This document shows positions 3,540 through 48,128 of a stretch of DNA of 48,918 bases, piece by piece. This DNA is from Calditrichota bacterium (GTDB taxonomy: Bacteria; Electryoneota; AABM5-125-24; Hatepunaeales; Hatepunaeaceae), in contig VGIQ01000007.1 of assembly GCA_016867835.1 (NCBI GenBank), forward strand, positions 1 to 48,918, given 5' to 3'. The notes under the pieces were generated by a model. The model ran no database searches and was not told the origin of the DNA. It was given only the letters and a program-made list of their open reading frames with translations. Each line of letters begins with the position of its first letter. Position 1 is the first letter of the stretch. Both the position numbers and the translations under genes were made by a program.

Positions 3540-6500
3540 ATGTCGTCCGTCCGTTCCAATCGCAACTTCATCCTCGTCTTCGGTGTCGTAGCCGTCCTGT
3601 TCCTCATTTACGGCGTCGTCAACTTCCACGAAGCCTTCCCCGAAATCGGCATCGACTTCAAGGTGCCGCGCGAGGAAGCGGTTACCCTCGCCGAGCAATT
3701 CCTTCAAGGTCGGGGCGTCGATCTGACCGGCTACCGCCGCATTGCCCTCTTCAACTACGCCGGCGGGACGAAAGTCTATCTCGAGCGTGAGTTAGGCGTC
3801 CCGCAACTGGTCAGCCTCGCCCAGGACACGATCGACGTCTGGCATTGGCGGGTGCGGTTCTATAAGACGCTCCAGAAACTGGAATACTCGGTCTATGTCG
3901 ATCCATCGGGACGGATTACCGGGTTTCAACGCAAACTCGAGGAGAACGCCGCCGGGCCGACGCTCGACAGCCTCGCCGCGCGAGCCCTTGCCGAAGCCTT
4001 CATTATCGGCCCCATGGGGGTCGATCTGGCGAAATGGGACCCGGCTTCGACCGGCTTCGAGGATCGCCCGGCGCGGCGCGACTGGTCGTTCGAATACGAA
4101 CTGCGCGGCTTTAAAGCCAAGGAGGCTCCCTACCGGATGCGGGTGCAGGTGCAGGGCGCCGAAGTCGGCTACTTCCAACGGCACCTTCGCGTCCCCGACG
4201 AGTGGTGGCGTGAGTGGGAAAACCAGCGGTCGCAGAACACCCTCTACCAGACCATCGACGAGGTGCTCGCCTTCCTGACGATGGTCTTGATCTTCATCTT
4301 TTTCCTGCGGCACATCAAAGCCGGGCAGATCACCTGGCGCTTCGCGATCTATCTGGCCGGAGCGCTCACCGTCGCCCTTTTCCTTGCCGGGTTCAACACC
4401 CTGCCTCTCTCTTATGGCTGGTATGAGACGACCGACTCCTTTGGTGCCCATGTCGGCGAGCAACTCCTCTTCAGCCTTCTCGGCGGGCTGGTGCAAGGTC
4501 TCCAACTGCTGCTCCTGATCGGCGCAGGGGAATGGCTTTACCGCCAGTATCATCCCGGCAAACTCTACCTTCCAGCACTCTTCACCAAGCGCGGCTTCCA
4601 GTCCCGCGAGATGTTTCAAGCGACGCTGGTCGGCTACCTTATGGCCGCCTTTCACATCGGCTTTGTGGTGCTCTTCTATGTCGTCGGGAAGGGGCTCGGC
4701 TTTTGGGCGCCTGCCGATGTGAAGTATAGCAACGCCGTATCAACCGCGATTCCGTGGATCTACCCGCTTGCCATATCGATGATGGCGGCGCTCTCGGAGG
4801 AATTCTGGTTCCGCCTCTGGGGCGTTCATTTCTTCAAGAAGTGGACCCACTCCACCGCCCTCGGAGTGATCATTCCGGCCTTCATCTGGGGTTTTCTACA
4901 TTCGGTCTATCCGCAACAGCCCGGTTTCGTGCGCGGGATCGAGGTCGGTCTGATCGGAATCGTCGCCGGGGTCGTGATGCTGCGCTTCGGGATCTGGGCG
5001 ACCCTCACCTGGCACTTCGTGATCGATGCAATCTTCATCGGCCTCTTTCTCTTTCAGTCGTCGAACGCCTACTTTTGGATCAGCGGCCTGATTGTCGTCG
5101 GTGTGCTGGCTATCCCGGCGATAGTCGCGGTGGTGGTCTATCTTCGCCGCCACGCCCTTGCGCCAGTCGATGACCTGCTCAATCAAGCCATCGAAACGCC
5201 TCCCCGACGGAAAGAACTTGAAGCCCCGGCAGCAGAGGAAGCAATAGCCGAACCGACCCGAGATCGATCCGCTGTTCATTATCAGGGACTTTCGCCGGCA
5301 GCCGTCAAGTGGGCTACGATTGTCGGTGTCATCGGGTTGCTGTTGATGGTAGCAGGACCTGCGCCGCGCGAGTTTGGAGACAAGTTCAAGCCGACTGTTG
5401 ACCGCGTCAAGGCTATAGAACTGGCTACCGCTGCATTAGTCGAGCGCTACCGGATCGATCCCGACACCTTACTGATTTCGGCGCGATTGCCTGCCTCTGA
5501 CGATGATGGCCCTGACTCCAGATCTTCCATCCAGAGCAACTCCCAACTCTCCTATGTGAAACGTCACGGAACGCTCGACGATGCCGAGCGGATATTTCTT
5601 TCAGACGACGGTGTAGGTAGATACTCCTGGTCGGTTGTCTTCAAGCGAGAGAAGAACGCCGAGTGGTATTCGGCAAGCGTCCGAATATTAGATGGCCGGG
5701 TGATACTTCACCATATCCTGCCGGACTCGGCGGCCGGTCCGATCTGGCCCGTCGATTCGGCACGGACGCTCGCGCAAGCGGCTTTTGAGCGCGAGTTCCC
5801 CGATCACGCCAACTGGCACATTCTCGAAGAGAATAGCCATAAATTGCCAAACCGCCTCGACTGGAACTTCACCTATGAGACTCTGAACCCGGTCGTCGGT
5901 GAAGCGCACTTTCGAGCAAACGTCTCAGTGCGCGGCAGCGAAGTGATCTCGGGCGGCAAGTGGCTCAAGGTGCCTGAAACCTGGGAACGTCACGAGGAAA
6001 AACGTGGCATCGGAAAGGTCGTCCTTGCGGCGCTGCTGGCGGTCATTATCATTGGCGCGCTGGTCTATGCCATAGCCGCCTTCGGTCGCCGGTTCAAACG
6101 GCAGGAGATAGAGTGGCGGACCGCGACCTGGTTCGGCGTCGCCACCGCGCTGCTGGCGCTAGTCGCGATGGTCAATGGTTGGGCCGACATCTGGAGCGAC
6201 TACCGGACGTCGATCCCTGTCGCGACCTTCCTGACTACCCGTATCGCGACGCTGCTGGTAGGACTGCTTTTGGGTGCCTTCCTGACGATTCCTGTCATCG
6301 CACTAGTTGAGGCACTGATACGGGAACGTCATCGCCATTCAGCCTGGTTCGGTCTTCGGCCGCTTCATCCAAATGCCACCGTAGACGGCATGGCTGTCGT
6401 CTTCGGAGTGATGGGGGTGATGCTCAGCATGAAGTATCTCTTCTCCGCCGCTGAAGGTTGGCTCGGGATGCCGGTGCACAGTTACGGACTAAACCTGACC

Positions 6501-6986
6501 GGGGAATTGGAGCACTTCATCCCGTGGCTCTCCGGTCTCACCAGCGGGCTTGGGAATTACCTTCAAGCCGCGGCGCTGCTCTTCGTGGTGATACTCTTTC
6601 AGGACGCGGTCAAAGCCGGCTGGCTGCGCGGACTTTTGATTGCAGTCATCGCGTCGGTCTTCTCGCTGCAGAACTTCGGCACGGGAGGCAACCTGACGAC
6701 CGGTGAAATGGTCTGGCAGGCGGTCCAGGGCGTGATCTGGGCCGGTGCTATCTACTATCTTGTCACCTACTGGGTCGGGGGACGCCTCTGGGCACTAATA
6801 GCCGGGATGATCGTCGTTGACTTCTACAAGATCGGCGGCGCGTTCACGGCTTGGGAAGGTGCGCCTTGGTTTGATCAGGGAGTGGTCCTCAAGTTCCTGG
6901 CTGCCGGAGTCTTCCTTTACGTCGTCATTTTAGGGAGCAAAGCGCGCAAGATTCGTGCTGAAGTCCCTTCCGGAGGTGACGCCTGA
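3540..6986 (+). CDS. Very large CPBP-family intramembrane metalloprotease
   Basis: The 1148-residue membrane protein has an N-terminal transmembrane helix (about 10-28), an extracytoplasmic region (about 40-230), and a membrane core. The core carries the CPBP (Rce1/Abi) motifs: EEFWFR with Glu420, Glu421 and Arg425, then FIWGFLH with His454, then TWHFVID with His492. These residues bind zinc and catalyse cleavage within membranes in the family. A linker (about 540-590), another helix, a second soluble region (about 615-820) and a final group of helices (830-1140) follow. The two soluble regions end alike (VPDEWWREWE near 218, VPETWERHEE near 811), suggesting internal duplication. The usual CPBP protein is 200-300 residues, so this is an unusually elaborate form. 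Substrate unknown. The start codon lies just after the tRNA. Confidence 0.8.
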   Translation: MSSVRSNRNFILVFGVVAVLFLIYGVVNFHEAFPEIGIDFKVPREEAVTLAEQFLQGRGVDLTGYRRIALFNYAGGTKVYLERELGVPQLVSLAQDTIDVWHWRVRFYKTLQKLEYSVYVDPSGRITGFQRKLEENAAGPTLDSLAARALAEAFIIGPMGVDLAKWDPASTGFEDRPARRDWSFEYELRGFKAKEAPYRMRVQVQGAEVGYFQRHLRVPDEWWREWENQRSQNTLYQTIDEVLAFLTMVLIFIFFLRHIKAGQITWRFAIYLAGALTVALFLAGFNTLPLSYGWYETTDSFGAHVGEQLLFSLLGGLVQGLQLLLLIGAGEWLYRQYHPGKLYLPALFTKRGFQSREMFQATLVGYLMAAFHIGFVVLFYVVGKGLGFWAPADVKYSNAVSTAIPWIYPLAISMMAALSEEFWFRLWGVHFFKKWTHSTALGVIIPAFIWGFLHSVYPQQPGFVRGIEVGLIGIVAGVVMLRFGIWATLTWHFVIDAIFIGLFLFQSSNAYFWISGLIVVGVLAIPAIVAVVVYLRRHALAPVDDLLNQAIETPPRRKELEAPAAEEAIAEPTRDRSAVHYQGLSPAAVKWATIVGVIGLLLMVAGPAPREFGDKFKPTVDRVKAIELATAALVERYRIDPDTLLISARLPASDDDGPDSRSSIQSNSQLSYVKRHGTLDDAERIFLSDDGVGRYSWSVVFKREKNAEWYSASVRILDGRVILHHILPDSAAGPIWPVDSARTLAQAAFEREFPDHANWHILEENSHKLPNRLDWNFTYETLNPVVGEAHFRANVSVRGSEVISGGKWLKVPETWERHEEKRGIGKVVLAALLAVIIIGALVYAIAAFGRRFKRQEIEWRTATWFGVATALLALVAMVNGWADIWSDYRTSIPVATFLTTRIATLLVGLLLGAFLTIPVIALVEALIRERHRHSAWFGLRPLHPNATVDGMAVVFGVMGVMLSMKYLFSAAEGWLGMPVHSYGLNLTGELEHFIPWLSGLTSGLGNYLQAAALLFVVILFQDAVKAGWLRGLLIAVIASVFSLQNFGTGGNLTTGEMVWQAVQGVIWAGAIYYLVTYWVGGRLWALIAGMIVVDFYKIGGAFTAWEGAPWFDQGVVLKFLAAGVFLYVVILGSKARKIRAEVPSGGDA

Positions 6987-15536: not shown

Positions 15537-16121
15537 CTACTTCCCTTCCTTCCACTTGTCGAAGGCCTCGGTCTCCTTCGAGAGTTCATCGAAAACCTGC
15601 GACGAACGAAATCGGGTGTAAAGTTGTTCCTGCTTCTTGATCTTGTCAAGCAGCGCCTGCGAGGTCGCGCCGAGCGGCATCTTCATCAGAACATAGCAGC
15701 GATAGACGCCGCCCTCAGCGGCCAGTTCCGACTGATCGGTAATGACTCCCGACAGAACGGTCGAAACGACCGCTTTCGTCGCCTGCGTGAACATGTCGAG
15801 ATACTGGGCATCCTCGGCAGTGCCGACCTCTTCCTGAAACCTCTTGGAGAGGCCGTCGAAGCGCGTCTCGACCGATTTGGCGATCTCCATCCGCGCGGCA
15901 TCGGAAGCCTTGTCGCGCGCCAGTTGCATATCGCGCGATGTGGCGGTTCCGGTGCCAAAGAGGAACTGGGAGTCCTGTGGCGGACTCAGAAACCACTTGG
16001 GAGCGGCTTTGATGGTCTCGCTTGCCGCCGGGGGCGTGATGCCGGTCTTGGTTCCGCCGCAACCGACTAAAGCGAGCAGCGTCAGGGACGCCGCAACCGA
16101 GGTGAGTGTTGATGTGCGCAT
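15537..16121 (-). CDS. LPP20-like lipoprotein
   Basis: The 194-residue protein has a signal sequence with lipobox LVGC (Cys near 21). The mature region WFLSPPQDSQFLFGTGTATS, then ARDKASDAARMEIAKSVETR, matches the LPP20/FlgP-type layout in which a short strand-helix unit follows a PxW or KPxW motif. Such proteins sit at the outer membrane; their role varies. The C-terminal third is a charged helix (KIKKQEQLYTRFRSSQVFDE). It lies between the barrel-SppA gene and ftsK on the same strand. Confidence 0.7.
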   Translation of the reverse strand: MRTSTLTSVAASLTLLALVGCGGTKTGITPPAASETIKAAPKWFLSPPQDSQFLFGTGTATSRDMQLARDKASDAARMEIAKSVETRFDGLSKRFQEEVGTAEDAQYLDMFTQATKAVVSTVLSGVITDQSELAAEGGVYRCYVLMKMPLGATSQALLDKIKKQEQLYTRFRSSQVFDELSKETEAFDKWKEGK

Positions 16122-16330: not shown

Positions 16331-18877
16331 TCACTCTACCTTCAAAGTAACCGGCATCAGCATCAGGATTTCGCCATCCTTCCAGCGTGAATCGTCAGCG
16401 ACCCGGTCGGCTAACGTTACGAGCGGCTCGGGCAGCGCCGCGCGGATGCGCGTATCGACCCAATCCGAGGCGATGCTGAAGCCCATCTTTGGTCGCGGAT
16501 AGATGGCGATTTCATAGTGATCGCCCGGTCGGATGCCGCCCAGTTTGGCTGCCAATTCGATAGCCATATCGAGCCCGCCGGTAAGATCGACAAGGCCGTT
16601 CGATTTGCCATCGGTGCCGCTCCAGATGCGCCCCTGCCCAATGGCGTTGACGGCGGAGGTATCCATTCCCCGGCCCTCGGCGACGTGATTCACGAAGAGT
16701 TGGTAGAATTGGTTGATGTGCACACGCAGTTTTTCCCACTCCTCGTCGGTAAAGGGCCGCGACGCCCAATACATATCGGCGAATTTGCCGCGCTTGATGG
16801 TCTCCTGGTTCAGCGCGATCTTGCGATAGAGCCCGTCCACCGCAAACTTGCCCGAGATGACACCGATCGAGCCGGTTATTGTGTTGGGCAGCGCGATGAT
16901 GGTGTCGGCGTGGCAGGCGATGTAGTAGCCTCCCGACCCAGCGACGTCAGACATCGAGACGATGATCGGCTTCTTGTTATCGCCCTCGTGATAACGTTTC
17001 ACTTCGCGCAGAATGACGTCCGACGCCAGCCCCGATCCGCCGGGCGAGTCGATCCGGAAGACGACCGCAGCGACGTCGTCATCCTCACGAGCGTTCTTCA
17101 GCGCTCTGGCAACGGTGGCGCTGCCCATCGACTCCCCTCCGAAGAGCCCGCCGGATGACGACTCGCCGGAGGTGATTCCGCCGACCCCATAGACAATTGC
17201 GACCTTCCTGCCCCGGGCGTCACCCCACTCGGCGGGATAGGCTTTTCGTAAAGCATATTTCTTCTCGCTGGTGAATTTCGGCTTACGGTCATCCACCTTG
17301 AGCAAATCTTCGATCTGATCTTCATAGACGAGGCTGTCCACGAGTCCGTTCTTCAACGCCTCGGCGGCGCTAAAGGGACCCTTGTCGATCAGTTCTCGCA
17401 TGTCGTCCTCGCTCATGGCGCGTCCGGCGGCGGCGGCCTTGACATACTCTTCGAAGAGGTCGTCAAGGATAGCATTAGTCGCTTCGCGCTGCCCGTCGGA
17501 CATGTCTTCGCGGGTGAACATCTCGGATGCCGACTTATACTTGCCGATATGCTCGAGTTGCGGTTCGATGCCGATCTTCGCCAGTGTGCCTTTGACAAAG
17601 ATGCCCTGGGCGGCAATGCCGTCGATCATCAAGCCGCCGCCGGGAGCCAGATAGATTTTATCTGCCACCGATGCAAGGTAATAGGCGCCGTCGCTGCCGT
17701 CTTCGAGGTAAGCCACGACCTTCTTGCCGGAGGCTTTGAACTTTTCGAGCGAGTTGCGCATCTCCTGTAACTTTGCCCACCCGGCTTCAACGCTCCAGAT
17801 CTTGAGGACGACGCCTTCGGTATCGGGGTCTTTTTCATAGCGGGAGAGACTCTTCTGAAAGCCGAAGATTGTCCGGTGGCGGCTCGCGAATAGGAAGCCG
17901 CCCGTCGGGTTCATTTCGACAACCGGACCGCGCAAGTTGACGACGACGTACCGGCGCTCTTTCTTACGCAGAACGGTCGGATGATGAAAGTGGCTGCTAT
18001 AGATGTAACTAACCCCGGCTAGGCGCCCGTTTTGCGACTCCTGCTGATAGTTGCCGAGTCCGGCGTGTCCGAAACTGAGTTCCAGTCCGCCTGAAAGCCG
18101 CGCGTCGTGCGCTAAAAAACCTTTGCGTTCGGGCGAGAAATCGATCTTTACCGCAATTCCGGGGACGACCTTCCAGGCCGCGCCGAAAGTGAGGTCGAGG
18201 TTGTCAAGGTAGGCTTCCTTATCGATTCCGGCAGTCGGATTGGCATCGACCTTCTCGGCACGGGCATCGGCGAAGATCGTCAGTCGGTCGCCGGTTCCAT
18301 ACCTGGCCATCCCGGGCAGAGCCAGGGGCCGGAAGGAAATCCCGGCATCATAGACGACCGGCTGCTTTTGACCATTTAGGCGCGGTTCATTAACCCCCCG
18401 CGCTACAAAGCCGTAGGATAGATACCGGAGCGGCCGCCCGAGGTATCCGAGATCCCAGGTGTTCTGTCGGTCGATGCGGGTGGTCCAACTGTAGGCAAAT
18501 CCAAAGTAATTACCGTCATCGCCCGTGCCCAGACCCCAGGTGTAGCGCCGTCGGTTGCCGTCAAGCCGGATGCCGTTCCAGTCGAGGGTGTCGGGAAGCA
18601 CCTCCATCGCAAAGCCAAAGCCGGTTCCGCCTGTGACGTAACCCCAGTTGCCGTAGATTCCCCGCTCGCGGTAGGGAAGCAGGAAGTAATCGGTCCAACC
18701 ATTCTGAACGCCGAGCCCGGCAGGATTGACGAGGATCGAGAGGGCGTCATCGGTCATTGCGACCGACTTTTGCGGCAATGCGAGCCAGCCCGGTTGAAGA
18801 CCCTGCGTAAACCCCGGTGACGACACCAGGAATAGCAGCGCAGAAGTTGGCAGTATCCATTTGAGAGCGCGGAACAT
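16331..18877 (-). CDS. sppA: Signal peptide peptidase SppA fused to an outer-membrane-barrel-like domain
   Basis: The 848-residue protein begins with a signal peptide (FRALKWILPTSALLFLVSSP). Residues about 25-320 are beta-rich with alternating aromatic and polar residues (NPAGLG near the start, as in PorV/UPF0164-type barrels). Residues about 340-830 form two ClpP-like SppA domains. The Lys/Ser dyad is present: Lys448 in GKYKSASEMF and Ser648 in DVAGSGGYY, equivalent to E. coli Lys209 and Ser409. SppA normally degrades cleaved signal peptides in the inner membrane; the barrel-like part is not part of standard SppA. Start ATG 18877 has GGAG seven bases upstream and gives the signal peptide; the open frame reaches 19021. 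Confidence 0.85.
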   Translation of the reverse strand: MFRALKWILPTSALLFLVSSPGFTQGLQPGWLALPQKSVAMTDDALSILVNPAGLGVQNGWTDYFLLPYRERGIYGNWGYVTGGTGFGFAMEVLPDTLDWNGIRLDGNRRRYTWGLGTGDDGNYFGFAYSWTTRIDRQNTWDLGYLGRPLRYLSYGFVARGVNEPRLNGQKQPVVYDAGISFRPLALPGMARYGTGDRLTIFADARAEKVDANPTAGIDKEAYLDNLDLTFGAAWKVVPGIAVKIDFSPERKGFLAHDARLSGGLELSFGHAGLGNYQQESQNGRLAGVSYIYSSHFHHPTVLRKKERRYVVVNLRGPVVEMNPTGGFLFASRHRTIFGFQKSLSRYEKDPDTEGVVLKIWSVEAGWAKLQEMRNSLEKFKASGKKVVAYLEDGSDGAYYLASVADKIYLAPGGGLMIDGIAAQGIFVKGTLAKIGIEPQLEHIGKYKSASEMFTREDMSDGQREATNAILDDLFEEYVKAAAAGRAMSEDDMRELIDKGPFSAAEALKNGLVDSLVYEDQIEDLLKVDDRKPKFTSEKKYALRKAYPAEWGDARGRKVAIVYGVGGITSGESSSGGLFGGESMGSATVARALKNAREDDDVAAVVFRIDSPGGSGLASDVILREVKRYHEGDNKKPIIVSMSDVAGSGGYYIACHADTIIALPNTITGSIGVISGKFAVDGLYRKIALNQETIKRGKFADMYWASRPFTDEEWEKLRVHINQFYQLFVNHVAEGRGMDTSAVNAIGQGRIWSGTDGKSNGLVDLTGGLDMAIELAAKLGGIRPGDHYEIAIYPRPKMGFSIASDWVDTRIRAALPEPLVTLADRVADDSRWKDGEILMLMPVTLKVE

Positions 18878-19027
18878 AAGGGAACTCCAGATAATAAGAT
18901 GTGGCACTCGGCCTTGTTCAGACCGGCTTACGGCAGGTGGAAGTCGACTGCCCGCCTGCTTATCAAACATTATAGACAGGGCTAACGGGCGAATGGTTAC
19001 ACCAGTGGCGGGCAACTGCAATCCGAT

Positions 19028-31045: not shown

Positions 31046-32602
31046 CTAATCCGCCCAGTTGATGGAGGTAGTGATTTCACGTTCGGCGAGTTGGAGACCT
31101 GCCGACCTATGAGTTACGCTTGTGTCGGGCAGTCGCGGCAGGCGTCCGGAAAAGTAATCCTCAATCGAGAGAATTTGCAGGACCGGATAGTCCGCCGCGC
31201 CGCCAGGGAGTTTCCACTTGCCCAAGGCGGCGGATTCGGTGAGCATGCCCTTGGTCGGTTCTTCGAGCACAATCATCAAGCCCAGCGGTGCGCCGTCGCG
31301 ATCCATCACCGCCTTCAATGCCCGGACATCCTTCGGTTGGTAACCGCCGCCCTTCACTTCGATAATGATCTTGTGATACTTGTGATCGAAATCCCGAAAA
31401 AAGAGCACTCCATCCACACCGCGGTCTCCTCCGCCGCGGCTGGCTCGCGACTGTCCGCCGACCAGCGAAACCGCCCACTTTTGAAACTCTATCGGGGACT
31501 GCTGAAAGAGAATCCGCGCATCGGCAATCGAACGCGGTATGCCGAATTCGCGATACTTCGCCTGCGGGAACTCCCCGGCCAGTCGTTCCTTGATCTTGCC
31601 GACAGCGAGGTATGTAATATCGATACCGATCCATCGGCGGCCCAATTTCTCGGCCGCAACAACTGCCGTTCCGCAGCCGCAGAACGGATCCAACACCATA
31701 TCGCCCGAGTTGGACGAGGCCTTGATTATGCGCTCAAGAAGTGCAAGCGGCTTCTGCGTAGGGTAGCCGAGACGCTCCTTGGCTTGGGAATTGAGATAGT
31801 CAATGATCCAAACGTCCGGAGCGATAGTCATCTCGGTCTTCGGTTCGACAATTCGGGCGAATTCGTTCAATTTTAGCCGACCGTCATTGACTGCTGCATC
31901 GACTTTATCTTGATCATAGATAATAAGTTGCGGTTTGCGCACCCCGTCGATAGGGACCGTGTTCCGATCCCATCCCCGCTTGTGCTTGCGCAATTGACCT
32001 TCGGTAGGTAAAACCTCAATCTGGTTGATGCTGTGATCATCAGAGTGAGAATAGAAGAGCAGCACGTCGTGCATTCTTTGAAAGCGTTTTGAAGATGCCG
32101 TCCATCGCCTGTAGTGCCAGATTATCTCATTGCGAAACGACCGCTTCCCGAACACATGGTCGAGCACAATCTTCAAGTAATGGCTTGCGGTCGGGTCGCA
32201 GTGCAGATAGAGCGCGCCGGTCGGCTTCAGGACGCGGTGCATTTCGACCAGCCGGATTGCCATCATCGCGAGGTAAGCCATCAGGTCGGTCTCGTCGAGG
32301 AATGACTTGAAAGCGCGCATCGTCTCCTTTAGCGACGCCGGAGCCGCCGGACTCCGCATCAGGTCGTCGTAGGCGTCCTGGGCGGTTTCACCCCAACTCC
32401 AGGTGTCGTTGAAGGCCTCGATCTGCGACGCCGGTTCGCGGCCCGTCTTGTCGTGAAAGATGACATTATAGACGCGCTTCGAGTTGAACGGAGGATCGAG
32501 GTAGATCAGATCGACCGATTCGTCGGCGATGCACCTTCGAAGGATGTCGAGATTGTCCCCGTAGTAGAGTTCGTTGTCGGGCAGTCTATCCTCCTTATCC
32601 AT
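31046..32602 (-). CDS. DNA methyltransferase fused to an Mrr-like restriction nuclease
   Basis: The 518-residue protein has a beta-order amino-methyltransferase: motif IV DPPFNSKRVYN (about residues 36-46) comes before motif I DPFCGCGTAVVAAEKL (about 310-325), giving N6-adenine or N4-cytosine methylation. The C-terminal part (about 370-500) reads GGGDRGVDGVLFF, then KIIIEVKGGG, the Asp...Glu-x-Lys core of Mrr/PD-(D/E)xK nucleases. Cleavage and modification would thus lie on one chain, as in compact type IIG-like systems, but no separate specificity domain is obvious. ATG 32602 overlaps the preceding stop by eight bases (ATGGATAA); an earlier ATG at 32626 is possible. It ends directly at fabL. 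Confidence 0.85.
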   Translation of the reverse strand: MDKEDRLPDNELYYGDNLDILRRCIADESVDLIYLDPPFNSKRVYNVIFHDKTGREPASQIEAFNDTWSWGETAQDAYDDLMRSPAAPASLKETMRAFKSFLDETDLMAYLAMMAIRLVEMHRVLKPTGALYLHCDPTASHYLKIVLDHVFGKRSFRNEIIWHYRRWTASSKRFQRMHDVLLFYSHSDDHSINQIEVLPTEGQLRKHKRGWDRNTVPIDGVRKPQLIIYDQDKVDAAVNDGRLKLNEFARIVEPKTEMTIAPDVWIIDYLNSQAKERLGYPTQKPLALLERIIKASSNSGDMVLDPFCGCGTAVVAAEKLGRRWIGIDITYLAVGKIKERLAGEFPQAKYREFGIPRSIADARILFQQSPIEFQKWAVSLVGGQSRASRGGGDRGVDGVLFFRDFDHKYHKIIIEVKGGGYQPKDVRALKAVMDRDGAPLGLMIVLEEPTKGMLTESAALGKWKLPGGAADYPVLQILSIEDYFSGRLPRLPDTSVTHRSAGLQLAEREITTSINWAD

Positions 32603-33026
32603 TGATAGGATCCCGCACCCGGACATTTATGGTGTCGCTGAAGGAGTCGCGATTCTGCGCGTCCCGGAGGGCGCCCTTGATGACGCAATTGCCCTCCTTG
32701 CGCCCGATGAAGATCACCTGCGTCGCAAAGCCGGTCGCCGAGTCGGGCTCGGTTACCGCGGTCGATGTAACCTGCCCGACCGAATCGGGCGTTACCGAGA
32801 ACCAGACGCGCACCCCGCGCTGGATCTCTCCGACCCCGTCGCGCACTTCACCCCGCAGCGGGATGTTGGTGTTGATGTCGACCTCGGGAGGAAAACCGTG
32901 AAGGGCGATATCGATGCCGTAGAGCGGACCGGTCGGCGGCGGTCTGCGCGTATTGCACTCTGAACCGCTCAGGACAGCAAGTCCAATACCCGCCACGATA
33001 GTCATTATGAGAACTCGACGAACCAT
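32595..33026 (-). CDS. Secreted protein with a bacterial Ig-like domain
   Basis: The 143-residue protein has a signal segment (LIMTIVAGIGLAVLSGSEC) without a clean lipobox. The mature part DINTNIPLRGEVRDGVGEIQ, then VRVWFSVTPDSVGQVTSTAV, then a GNCVIKGALRD strand resembles one Big_1/invasin-type Ig fold. The role is probably surface or periplasmic; no partner is known. It overlaps the methyltransferase start and follows the NAD(P)-binding gene by 23 bases. Confidence 0.6.
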   Translation of the reverse strand: MVRRVLIMTIVAGIGLAVLSGSECNTRRPPPTGPLYGIDIALHGFPPEVDINTNIPLRGEVRDGVGEIQRGVRVWFSVTPDSVGQVTSTAVTEPDSATGFATQVIFIGRKEGNCVIKGALRDAQNRDSFSDTINVRVRDPING

Positions 33027-44555: not shown

Positions 44556-47500
44556 ATGCTCAACCAACGCACCCTTCGCAGCGCTACGGCGATTCTGCTT
44601 CCCGCACTCCTGACGCTGATCTTGCCGGGCCTGATCTTTGCCGCGGACGACAAGCCGTTGACCGGCTACTTGCCCGACGCGGCACAACTGCCACTCGTGA
44701 AATCGCTGGAAGCGATCCCGATCGCTCCCGGTCTCGACGACCCTCCCGACCGTGACCGCCGCGGCGGCCCCGACAACTTCGGCTACCGCTGGCGGGACAC
44801 GGAGGAGCAGGGTGTCCAATATCAGTGGATCGACATCACCCAGGGCGATATGCGGGGGAATCAATTCCAGAATGTTGGAGACGATTGGAACAGCGGTCAA
44901 CTCGACCTTGGATGGACTTTCAATTTCTATGGACGTGAGTTCCGCAACTTCTTCGTCTGCTCAAATGGCTGGTTATCGTTCACCAGCAATTCAAACGACC
45001 TCGCAGCAAACGACAACTTCCCGAACCAGGGCGACCCTGAAAACCTGATTGCCCCGTTCATGTCCGATCTATTTCCAGGGACGATCTGGTGGTATACAAA
45101 CGCGCAAAATCGTATCGCCATCGTAACCTGGAATGTGATCCACTATGGGGATCGGAACCGCAACTACATCTTTCAGGTGATTCTGACCGGCAACGGGCGA
45201 ATCAAGTTTCAGTACCAGACCAATCAGAGAGTACCGGACAACTACTTTGTCGGCATTGGGATACAGAATGCGGAGCGCAACGTTGGTCTGACCGCCTACC
45301 GACAGCAGGGAGGTGGTGCACCATCCAATCAGTATGCCATCGACATCTCCAAAGCCCTCGGCTGGGTAACCGGGACGGTGAGCGACCTCGCGACCGGCGA
45401 TCCGGTCGAAGGAGCCCGTGTCCGGCTCTCGGATGGGACCGCCGCCGATACCGATGACGAAGGCATCTATTGGATGGACGAAGTCCTCGCCGATCCCTAT
45501 ACCGCCACAGCCTCGAAGTTCGGCTACAACACAGTGCTAAGCGACGAGTTCGAGGTTGCCGACCAGGAGACGACGGTCGTCGATTTCGCGCTGCCGCATC
45601 CCGAAATCGATGTCGATACCGATGGCTTTGAGGTGGAACTTCCCCGCCAGGGCGTCCGTCGCGACGGCTTCACCATCGCCAACGCCGGCAACGGCCCGCT
45701 CGACTTCGCCATGCGGTTCACGGTTCCTGTACGGCGGGACGATCCAGGAGACGTCATCTTCGACTGGAACGCCAATGAACTGACCGGCGACGGCCGGATG
45801 CGAGGCGTTACGACCGACGGCGACAACTACTACCTCACCGGCTCGAACAATCAGGAGGAACCGAACTACATCTACGTCGTCAACCGCAACGGCGAGTTGG
45901 TTCGTCGTATGGAACAGCCCCACCAGAACCCGAGCAGCATCGGTCTGAAGGGCATCACCACCGACGGCGAGTTCCTCTACAGCGCCGACGCGCGCGAGAT
46001 CAACCAAATCAGTTTCGATGGCGAATTGATTCGCGCCTTCCCGGGACCCTTCAATCCGACGCGCTACATCGTCTATGTGCCCGAAACGAACCACTTCTGG
46101 GTCTGCGAAATCGGCTCCCGGGTCGCTGAAATCGACCGCGACGGCAACGTCATCCGGCAATTTGACAAGCCTCAGCGTGCCGCCGGTCTGGCCTGGCATC
46201 CCGACGATCCGGACGGCTTCAACCTCTATATCTTCCACCGGATTCCGAACGGCTCGCAACTGGCGCTTGCCAAGATGAACCCCGCCAACGGGCAGCACCG
46301 GCCGGTAATGGAGTTCAACATCCAGCAAGGCGACGGCGCGCTCGACTGCGCCATCACCAACGGCTTCAACCCGCTGATATGGCTCTTCGTTGCGCTGGTG
46401 GAGAACAACGTCCCGGACCGGGTCGTCGGCATCGAACTGGCTCTCAACACTTCATGGGTGCAGATCGATCCGATGACCGGAACCGTCGAACCGGAATCGA
46501 CAACCGAAATCGAAGCCCGCTTCGACGCCGGCGACTGGCTCCCCGGCACCTATGAACTGGAACTCGAGATCAACCATAATGCCGCGACCGAGCCGGTCGT
46601 TCTGCCGCTCACGCTCATCGTCACCAATGAGGGCCTCGAACCGCAGTTCTACGAGTTCGTCGCCACCGATATCCGGCACAATTTCGCGATCACCTCGGTA
46701 ATGTTGCGCGGCGAGCGAGCCGTCTTCGAGGACGAAATCGGCGTCTTCACAGCAGGTGGTCTCTGCATCGGAGGGTCGCTCTGGTTCGACCGGCTGACGA
46801 CGGTAACCGCTTACGGCGATAACCCTGACACCGACGTCCTCGACGGCTTCGAGGAAGGTCAGGCTTACGCCTTCCGGGTCTGGGATCACGCTGCGGACCG
46901 AGACTTTGCAGCCGACTTCACCTGGTCTTCGGGAGCCCGGGTCTTCGCGGCGGGTGGCTCGAGCCGCGGATCGCTTGAGGTGCCGGGTCAGGTGCGGGAG
47001 AATGTCTGGTCGCTTCCGCTCGGCTGGAGCCTCATATCGAGTAATGTGATGCCTGACGATGACGGCATCGCGGGGCTGTTCGCAGCGCTCGTCGAAACCG
47101 GCCGGCTCGAAATGGTAAAGAACGGACGAGGCCAGTTCTACCGGCCCGGATTCGGTTTCGATAACATCGAACATTGGGTTTCGAGCGAAGGCTATCTGGT
47201 GAAGGTCAACGCCGCGTCCGAGTGGCGGATGCGTGGTGACCTGATCGACCCGACGACGCCGATCGACCTTGTCGAAGGCTGGAACTTCGTCGCCTACTTC
47301 CCGCGGCGGGCGTTCGATGCTCCGACCGCGTTTCAGTCGCTCGGCGAAGCGTTGACCATCGCCAAGGACGGCACCGGTCGCTTCTACCTCCCGGCCTGGG
47401 ACTACAACGGCATCGGCAACTGCGTCGAATTGATGGGCTATCAGGTGCGGCTCGCCGAAGCGGCCCAACTGCGCTATCCGCTCGCTGGAAATGCGGCTAT

Positions 47501-48128
47501 GGCTTTGCCCATAGCCGTTCCACGGTGGTCGAAGGCGCCGTCACCGACCAGCCGGAATATGTCGCTGCTCGTGATAGGTAAGGGACTCGACGCCGGGATG
47601 GAGATCGTTGTGAGGACCTCCTTGGATCAGATGGTTGGATCCGGAGTCATCGACGCGGAGGGGCGAGCCGGACTTGCCTTGTGGGGGAATGATCCGGAAA
47701 CTGAGGTGGCCGAGGGCGCGGTGGAAGGCGAGCCTCTCACATTTACGATCCTAACCGGCCCGGGCGAAGTGCGTCCGGCTTCAGCGCGTCTGCTCGAAGG
47801 CGAAACGACCTATCGCACCGACGGATGGGCGGTGATCGAGTTAGGTATGGGAACATCGACGCCGTTTGAGTTCGCCCTTTTCGGCGTCCGTCCCAATCCC
47901 TTCAACGACCGATCGACCGTCGCGTTTGCCCTGGCTGAAGCCGGAGTTGCGCGTCTGGCGCTCTACGACCTCGCCGGGCGGGAGGTGCGGGAGATTGCCT
48001 CCGGCCGGTGGAATGCCGGACGGCACGAGGTTGGTTTAGCGGCAGGTGACCTCGCGAGCGGCACTTATATCCTGCGTCTCGAGACGCCGGCGTCGTCGCG
48101 AGCCGCGAAGGTGCTCCTGTTGAGGTAG
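44556..48128 (+). CDS. Large secreted protein with a C-terminal T9SS sorting domain
   Basis: The 1190-residue protein has a signal peptide (ILLPALLTLILPGLIFAADD). A beta-sandwich follows (about 75-275) containing FNFYGREFRNFFVCSNGWLS. Next is a carboxypeptidase-regulatory-like domain (about 278-345: TGTVSDLATGDPVEGARVRL), a beta-propeller-like region (about 390-620 with repeated DGxxLY/IxxxDxxG turns), and Ig-like modules. The type A sorting domain begins FGVRPNPFNDRSTV (about 1105) and ends ASSRAAKVLLLR. It would be exported by the type IX system and anchored or released. A gaggagtc ribosome site precedes ATG 44556. Enzymatic activity is not evident. Confidence 0.85.
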   Translation: MLNQRTLRSATAILLPALLTLILPGLIFAADDKPLTGYLPDAAQLPLVKSLEAIPIAPGLDDPPDRDRRGGPDNFGYRWRDTEEQGVQYQWIDITQGDMRGNQFQNVGDDWNSGQLDLGWTFNFYGREFRNFFVCSNGWLSFTSNSNDLAANDNFPNQGDPENLIAPFMSDLFPGTIWWYTNAQNRIAIVTWNVIHYGDRNRNYIFQVILTGNGRIKFQYQTNQRVPDNYFVGIGIQNAERNVGLTAYRQQGGGAPSNQYAIDISKALGWVTGTVSDLATGDPVEGARVRLSDGTAADTDDEGIYWMDEVLADPYTATASKFGYNTVLSDEFEVADQETTVVDFALPHPEIDVDTDGFEVELPRQGVRRDGFTIANAGNGPLDFAMRFTVPVRRDDPGDVIFDWNANELTGDGRMRGVTTDGDNYYLTGSNNQEEPNYIYVVNRNGELVRRMEQPHQNPSSIGLKGITTDGEFLYSADAREINQISFDGELIRAFPGPFNPTRYIVYVPETNHFWVCEIGSRVAEIDRDGNVIRQFDKPQRAAGLAWHPDDPDGFNLYIFHRIPNGSQLALAKMNPANGQHRPVMEFNIQQGDGALDCAITNGFNPLIWLFVALVENNVPDRVVGIELALNTSWVQIDPMTGTVEPESTTEIEARFDAGDWLPGTYELELEINHNAATEPVVLPLTLIVTNEGLEPQFYEFVATDIRHNFAITSVMLRGERAVFEDEIGVFTAGGLCIGGSLWFDRLTTVTAYGDNPDTDVLDGFEEGQAYAFRVWDHAADRDFAADFTWSSGARVFAAGGSSRGSLEVPGQVRENVWSLPLGWSLISSNVMPDDDGIAGLFAALVETGRLEMVKNGRGQFYRPGFGFDNIEHWVSSEGYLVKVNAASEWRMRGDLIDPTTPIDLVEGWNFVAYFPRRAFDAPTAFQSLGEALTIAKDGTGRFYLPAWDYNGIGNCVELMGYQVRLAEAAQLRYPLAGNAAMALPIAVPRWSKAPSPTSRNMSLLVIGKGLDAGMEIVVRTSLDQMVGSGVIDAEGRAGLALWGNDPETEVAEGAVEGEPLTFTILTGPGEVRPASARLLEGETTYRTDGWAVIELGMGTSTPFEFALFGVRPNPFNDRSTVAFALAEAGVARLALYDLAGREVREIASGRWNAGRHEVGLAAGDLASGTYILRLETPASSRAAKVLLLR

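Follow-up and report, generated by a model that had tools for sequence, protein, structure and literature searches.

A FadL/PorV-type barrel joined to a complete SppA 67K peptidase, a candidate outer-membrane-anchored enzyme of Candidatus Electryoneota and other phyla

The stretch of DNA analysed here, referred to as the window, covers 48,918 nucleotides of a Calditrichota bacterium genome (contig VGIQ01000007.1, GenBank assembly GCA_016867835.1; Electryoneota in GTDB). It was found to carry a single unbroken open reading frame on the minus strand (16331-18877) that encodes one protein of 848 aa, in which a signal peptide, a FadL/PorV-type barrel, a 9-residue linker and a complete SppA of the 67K type follow one another. 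The start codon was assigned to the ATG at 18877; homologues begin at the matching position in the alignment, and a GGAG read from the sequence as the probable ribosome-binding site (18885-18888) lies 7 bases upstream. All features below are on the same strand. Residues 1-25 (18803-18877) are the presumed Sec signal peptide, with an approximate cleavage point and a hydrophobic start common to the homologues. Alignment and the AF2 model place an N-terminal segment (residues 26-61, 18695-18802) ahead of the first strand. It contains N51-P52-A53 (18719-18727), the counterpart of the FadL NPA motif, which is invariant in both alignments (A1 and A2), and, judging by FadL, the segment would sit inside the barrel. 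The barrel strands span residues 62-299 (17981-18694), and the linker, delimited by the AF2 secondary structure, residues 300-308 (17954-17980). Pfam, TIGR00705 and structure alignment divide the SppA part into an N-terminal half (residues 309-550, 17228-17953; its boundary with the second half is approximate), which bears the general-base lysine K448 (17534-17536), and a C-terminal half (residues 551-800, 16478-17227), which bears the nucleophile S648 (16934-16936). The tail (residues 801-848, 16334-16477) is poorly modelled by AF2 and ends in an LMP motif shared with the aligned homologues.

The adjoining gene on the 3' side (15537-16121, minus strand) encodes a 194-aa probable lipoprotein with a lipobox-like LVGCGG; no family match was found for it, and it is not beside the fusion in relatives. 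Elsewhere in the window, a 1148-aa open reading frame (3540-6986, plus strand) has no Pfam or NCBIfam match, and a DNA methylase (N6_N4_Mtase) occurs in one protein with a weak C-terminal restriction-endonuclease-like match (31046-32626, minus strand). Comparison of the surroundings of the fusion disclosed no conserved neighbours or operon partner, with only scattered metH and ABC matches recurring, and it is therefore the fusion itself that is conserved.

The original prediction had proposed complete SppA domains with an intact Lys/Ser dyad, and this was borne out. Pfam gave a Peptidase_S49 match in two stretches (E 1.8e-77), and the NCBIfam model TIGR00705 (SppA_67K) scored 347.8 bits over residues 338-801, above its cut-off of 311.45. 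In the full-length AF2 model (pLDDT 83.7), residues 307-795 align to residues 55-551 of E. coli SppA with Z 41.3, an rmsd of 2.4 over 458 residues and 32% identity. The catalytic K448 and S648 are identical in 84/84 fused and 20/20 canonical SppA sequences of the alignment.

SppA is an inner-membrane enzyme that clears the remnants of signal peptides, and the 67K type typically has an N-terminal transmembrane anchor, which is absent from the fused protein. The match to TIGR00705 begins at profile position 79, and the structural alignment begins at position 55 of E. coli SppA, which we take to be just past its membrane anchor. A hidden inner-membrane helix was ruled out, as the fused proteins showed none beyond the signal peptide; in this check one frame (L053) was begun too far upstream, hence its late-appearing signal peptide. 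All 20 of the canonical SppA proteins checked have a strongly hydrophobic helix ahead of the domain and no barrel. Homologues are of two kinds. Canonical ones measure about 570-650 aa, and in many of them the match to the family model starts at position 5-16; fused ones measure about 770-950 aa, lack the anchor part of the profile and mostly match from about 73-85. The barrel occupies the place of the transmembrane anchor of canonical SppA, and with no anchor helix and a profile match starting only at position 79 the protein is an SppA by its enzyme part and not by canonical architecture.

Neither Pfam nor NCBIfam matched the first 300 residues (Pfam not even at E 10), and the barrel profile had no match among the sequences of solved structures, so that the relatives of the barrel among these were found by fold comparison only. 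An AF2 model built on the aligned N-terminal domains of 25 homologues (mean pLDDT 85.1, pTM 0.81) displays strands from residue 62 to 299, numbering 14 when, as we do, one counts the long 260-280 strand as a hairpin; the predicted barrel at residues 25-320 is thus recovered in the model at residues 26-299. By our reading of the same model the extracellular loops are short, about 2-19 residues. Foldseek ranked FadL first. VIA-align gave Z 23.8 to FadL (3pgr), 23.8 and 23.7 to PorV from type IX secretion system (T9SS) structures (8gl6_F and 6h3i_F, respectively), and 20.8 to BamG (9n2d_B). OmpG and other barrels reached no more than about 16, and values above 20 were confined to outer-membrane proteins of the FadL family. 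The features of the FadL superfamily are present: a barrel of 14 strands by the above count, an N-terminal plug segment and the NPA motif. Profile-profile comparison (hhalign) also related the barrel to the stand-alone PorV proteins of the phylum (probability 97.9%, E 4.4e-13), and yet PF19572 and NF033709, the PorV and PorV-PorQ models, do not match it, and nor does the Toluene_X/FadL model of Pfam. The assignment of the barrel to a PorV/UPF0164 type therefore holds as fold and remote homology and fails as a family match. The window's genome also encodes a separate PorV-family protein (L077, 290 bits to NF033709), which makes the fused barrel related to PorV but distinct from it.

The likeness to FadL raises the question of transport. 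FadL-family barrels classically import hydrophobic molecules (PMC12611786), and as the N-terminal segment with its NPA motif is retained, the fused barrel could be an uptake channel for hydrophobic peptides that the attached peptidase cuts on arrival. Neither an open path nor a binding site is indicated in the fused barrel, however, and PorV and BamG, both FadL relatives, no longer transport and work instead as parts of machines, BamG in one of the outer membrane (PMC12611786); uptake thus seems very unlikely.

The nearest named relatives are in Candidatus Electryoneota (FCB group), where the barrel profile matches 38 of 39 genomes and the barrel and S49 domains share one frame in 34 of 39, 30 of them read directly and four (G005, G022, G028 and G033) by matching contig and frame. 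Among the 386 genomes searched, the fusion was also found in 51 genomes from 36 families outside this phylum. An Eisenbacteria record (L066) has the fusion as well. A scan with a 10-row alignment gave 11 loci, of which a Coatesbacteria one (L067), matched over residues 5-60 only, was left out. The expected presence of the fusion in close relatives was therefore confirmed, and its conservation extends well past them, into genomes of which 47 of 51 encode SprA, the translocon of the T9SS. Because the window comes from a draft genome of 214 contigs, an assembly chimera or a chance read-through of two genes might be suspected, but the same fusion recurs in many independent genomes, including the single-contig G178; the recurrence refutes a chimera and leaves such an artefact hardly credible. 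With high confidence, then, the barrel-SppA fusion is a real and widely conserved architecture, and no earlier description of one was found in the open-access literature.

Nearly all of the stronger matches to the barrel profile are fused frames, which suggests that barrel and SppA travelled together. Two barrels without SppA were observed. In G005 a stand-alone copy (L024:7761-8690, minus strand) ends just past the first SppA strand with an acidic tail, and the sole full fusion of that genome belongs to the other paralogue type; given this copy, the barrel may also serve a purpose independent of SppA. In G131 the same HMM matched a 330-aa stand-alone barrel (L176:1070-2059) with no SppA nearby within the 5 kb locus, and the fused barrel may derive from relatives of this kind. 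Variants of the fusion locus were also seen. The window's family includes three genomes where the fusion is followed closely, on its own strand, by a single-domain SppA about 365 aa long (L027:3521-4651, L029:9183-10280 and L030:3925-5019). G212, a genome where SprA was not detected, carries a longer fused frame (L165:1004-4459, 1152 aa), in which some 300 additional residues precede the barrel.

Several genomes of the window's family have two fused paralogues each, and the canonical transmembrane-anchored SppA, a separate paralogue, is also present in many of the genomes with the fusion. When 104 SppA halves were placed in a tree, the fused and the canonical sequences clustered strongly (5 changes, where shuffles gave 18.6), and the supported branches force one change only; three divergent fused rows (L133, L137 and L165) are placed weakly among the canonical ones. 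In an AU test covering 56 rows under a simpler model, a topology with all fused rows in a single clade fitted no worse than the unconstrained tree (p-AU 0.676). A single origin of the fusion is possible.

These data bear on whether the barrel is merely a different anchor, from which SppA would do its ordinary job and clear inner-membrane signal-peptide remnants from a new place. The SppA part is of the full 67K type, and no S49 protein besides the fusion was found in the window's genome, G002 or G006, so that in these the fused form might perform the ordinary SppA job. Elsewhere the canonical enzyme stands beside the fusion in many genomes, which points to different jobs there, and the two forms fall in separate groups of the tree; a mere change of anchor is judged unlikely. 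As so many genomes have kept canonical SppA as well, the fused form likely has its own job.

The reading preferred here, with somewhat better than even confidence, is that the fusion is an outer-membrane-anchored SppA that faces the periplasm and clears, or controls the quality of, peptides there. The protein would be exported by Sec and its signal peptide removed, after which the FadL/PorV-type barrel (residues 26-299) would insert into the outer membrane. A barrel of FadL topology has both its termini in the periplasm; the peptidase should hence face the periplasm, where the short linker would keep it at the inner face of the outer membrane. The SppA part presumably forms the usual SppA tetramer and would work as a Lys-Ser peptidase, with K448 as the general base and S648 as the nucleophile. 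Location, orientation, oligomeric state and activity are here proposed from knowledge of the families. As for the substrates, our guess is that short, hydrophobic or unfolded peptides collecting on the inner leaflet of the outer membrane would be cut. The fusion would thereby provide clearance or quality control for traffic at the outer membrane and in secretion, as a counterpart of the transmembrane-anchored SppA at the inner membrane. SppA has probably moved to the second membrane in the bacteria that bear the fusion, and if so many lineages would run a second peptidase station there. The widely kept barrel-SppA paralogue would then be a testable candidate for a factor linked to outer-membrane traffic or type IX secretion in phyla that have received little study.

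A link to type IX secretion had been part of the original prediction, which envisaged the possible processing of T9SS cargo or of surface lipoprotein precursors. Outside the phylum SprA was detected in 91 of 347 genomes overall, and among the 51 that carry the fusion, in 47. The Fisher p-values of this association treat genomes as independent and are not for reading at face value. By family, SprA occurs in 33 of the 36 fusion-bearing ones. Possession of an outer membrane was ruled out as the cause, since Omp85 is present in 364 of the 386 genomes. That the barrel fold is nearest to FadL and PorV is consistent with coupling to the T9SS, as is the contact that the periplasmic SkpA makes with the base of PorV (PMC10994853). 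In Flavobacterium columnare, deletion of canonical sppA stops gliding and raises vesicle release, which its authors explain via Sec (PMC13236525); by analogy, this phenotype hints that loss of SppA can affect such systems. Against coupling, common descent can yield the same association, the counts having been taken without a species tree, and shared inheritance of the fusion and SprA may be the explanation of their co-occurrence. Exceptions occur both ways, with SprA but no detected fusion in 44 genomes, and the fusion but no detected SprA in four outside the phylum as well as in G008 and G020, although any of the drafts may be incomplete. Neighbour comparison showed no linkage of the fusion to T9SS genes, and the extracellular loops are short, unlike those of a cargo shuttle. 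Coupling of the fusion to the T9SS is a possible but less likely reading. The T9SS idea draws indirect support from the co-occurrence with SprA, for which shared ancestry can also account, and the processing of exported cargo is unsupported in the form proposed: PorV binds cargo through its extracellular loops (PMC10994853), those of the fused barrel are short, and the peptidase should face the periplasm, so that on topology the cutting of exported cargo outside the cell is unlikely. The window itself encodes a likely T9SS cargo protein (44556-48128, plus strand; 1190 aa) with a carboxypeptidase-regulatory-like domain and a weak terminal Por_Secre_tail match.

Set beside known systems, the outer-membrane-anchored, periplasm-facing SppA proposed here combines parts of several. 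With SppA 67K (protease IV, E. coli SppA, MEROPS S49) it shares the two-half fold, the Lys-Ser dyad and a score over the TIGR00705 cut-off, and it differs in having a 14-strand barrel instead of the transmembrane anchor. It resembles FadL (OmpP1/TodX) in fold (Z 23.8) and in the NPA motif, but only 11-13% of the approximately 240-265 aligned residues are identical, Toluene_X does not match, and transport is without support in the fused barrel. Its likeness to the PorV and PorV-PorQ family of the T9SS consists of the FadL-type fold (Z 23.8) and remote sequence homology, whereas the fused barrel is shorter, has short extracellular loops, goes unmatched by the PorV models and carries a peptidase. 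BamG of the Bacteroidota BAM complex is likewise a FadL-family barrel (Z 20.8); the fusion shows no sign of a BAM link, and BamG, unlike it, carries no enzyme.
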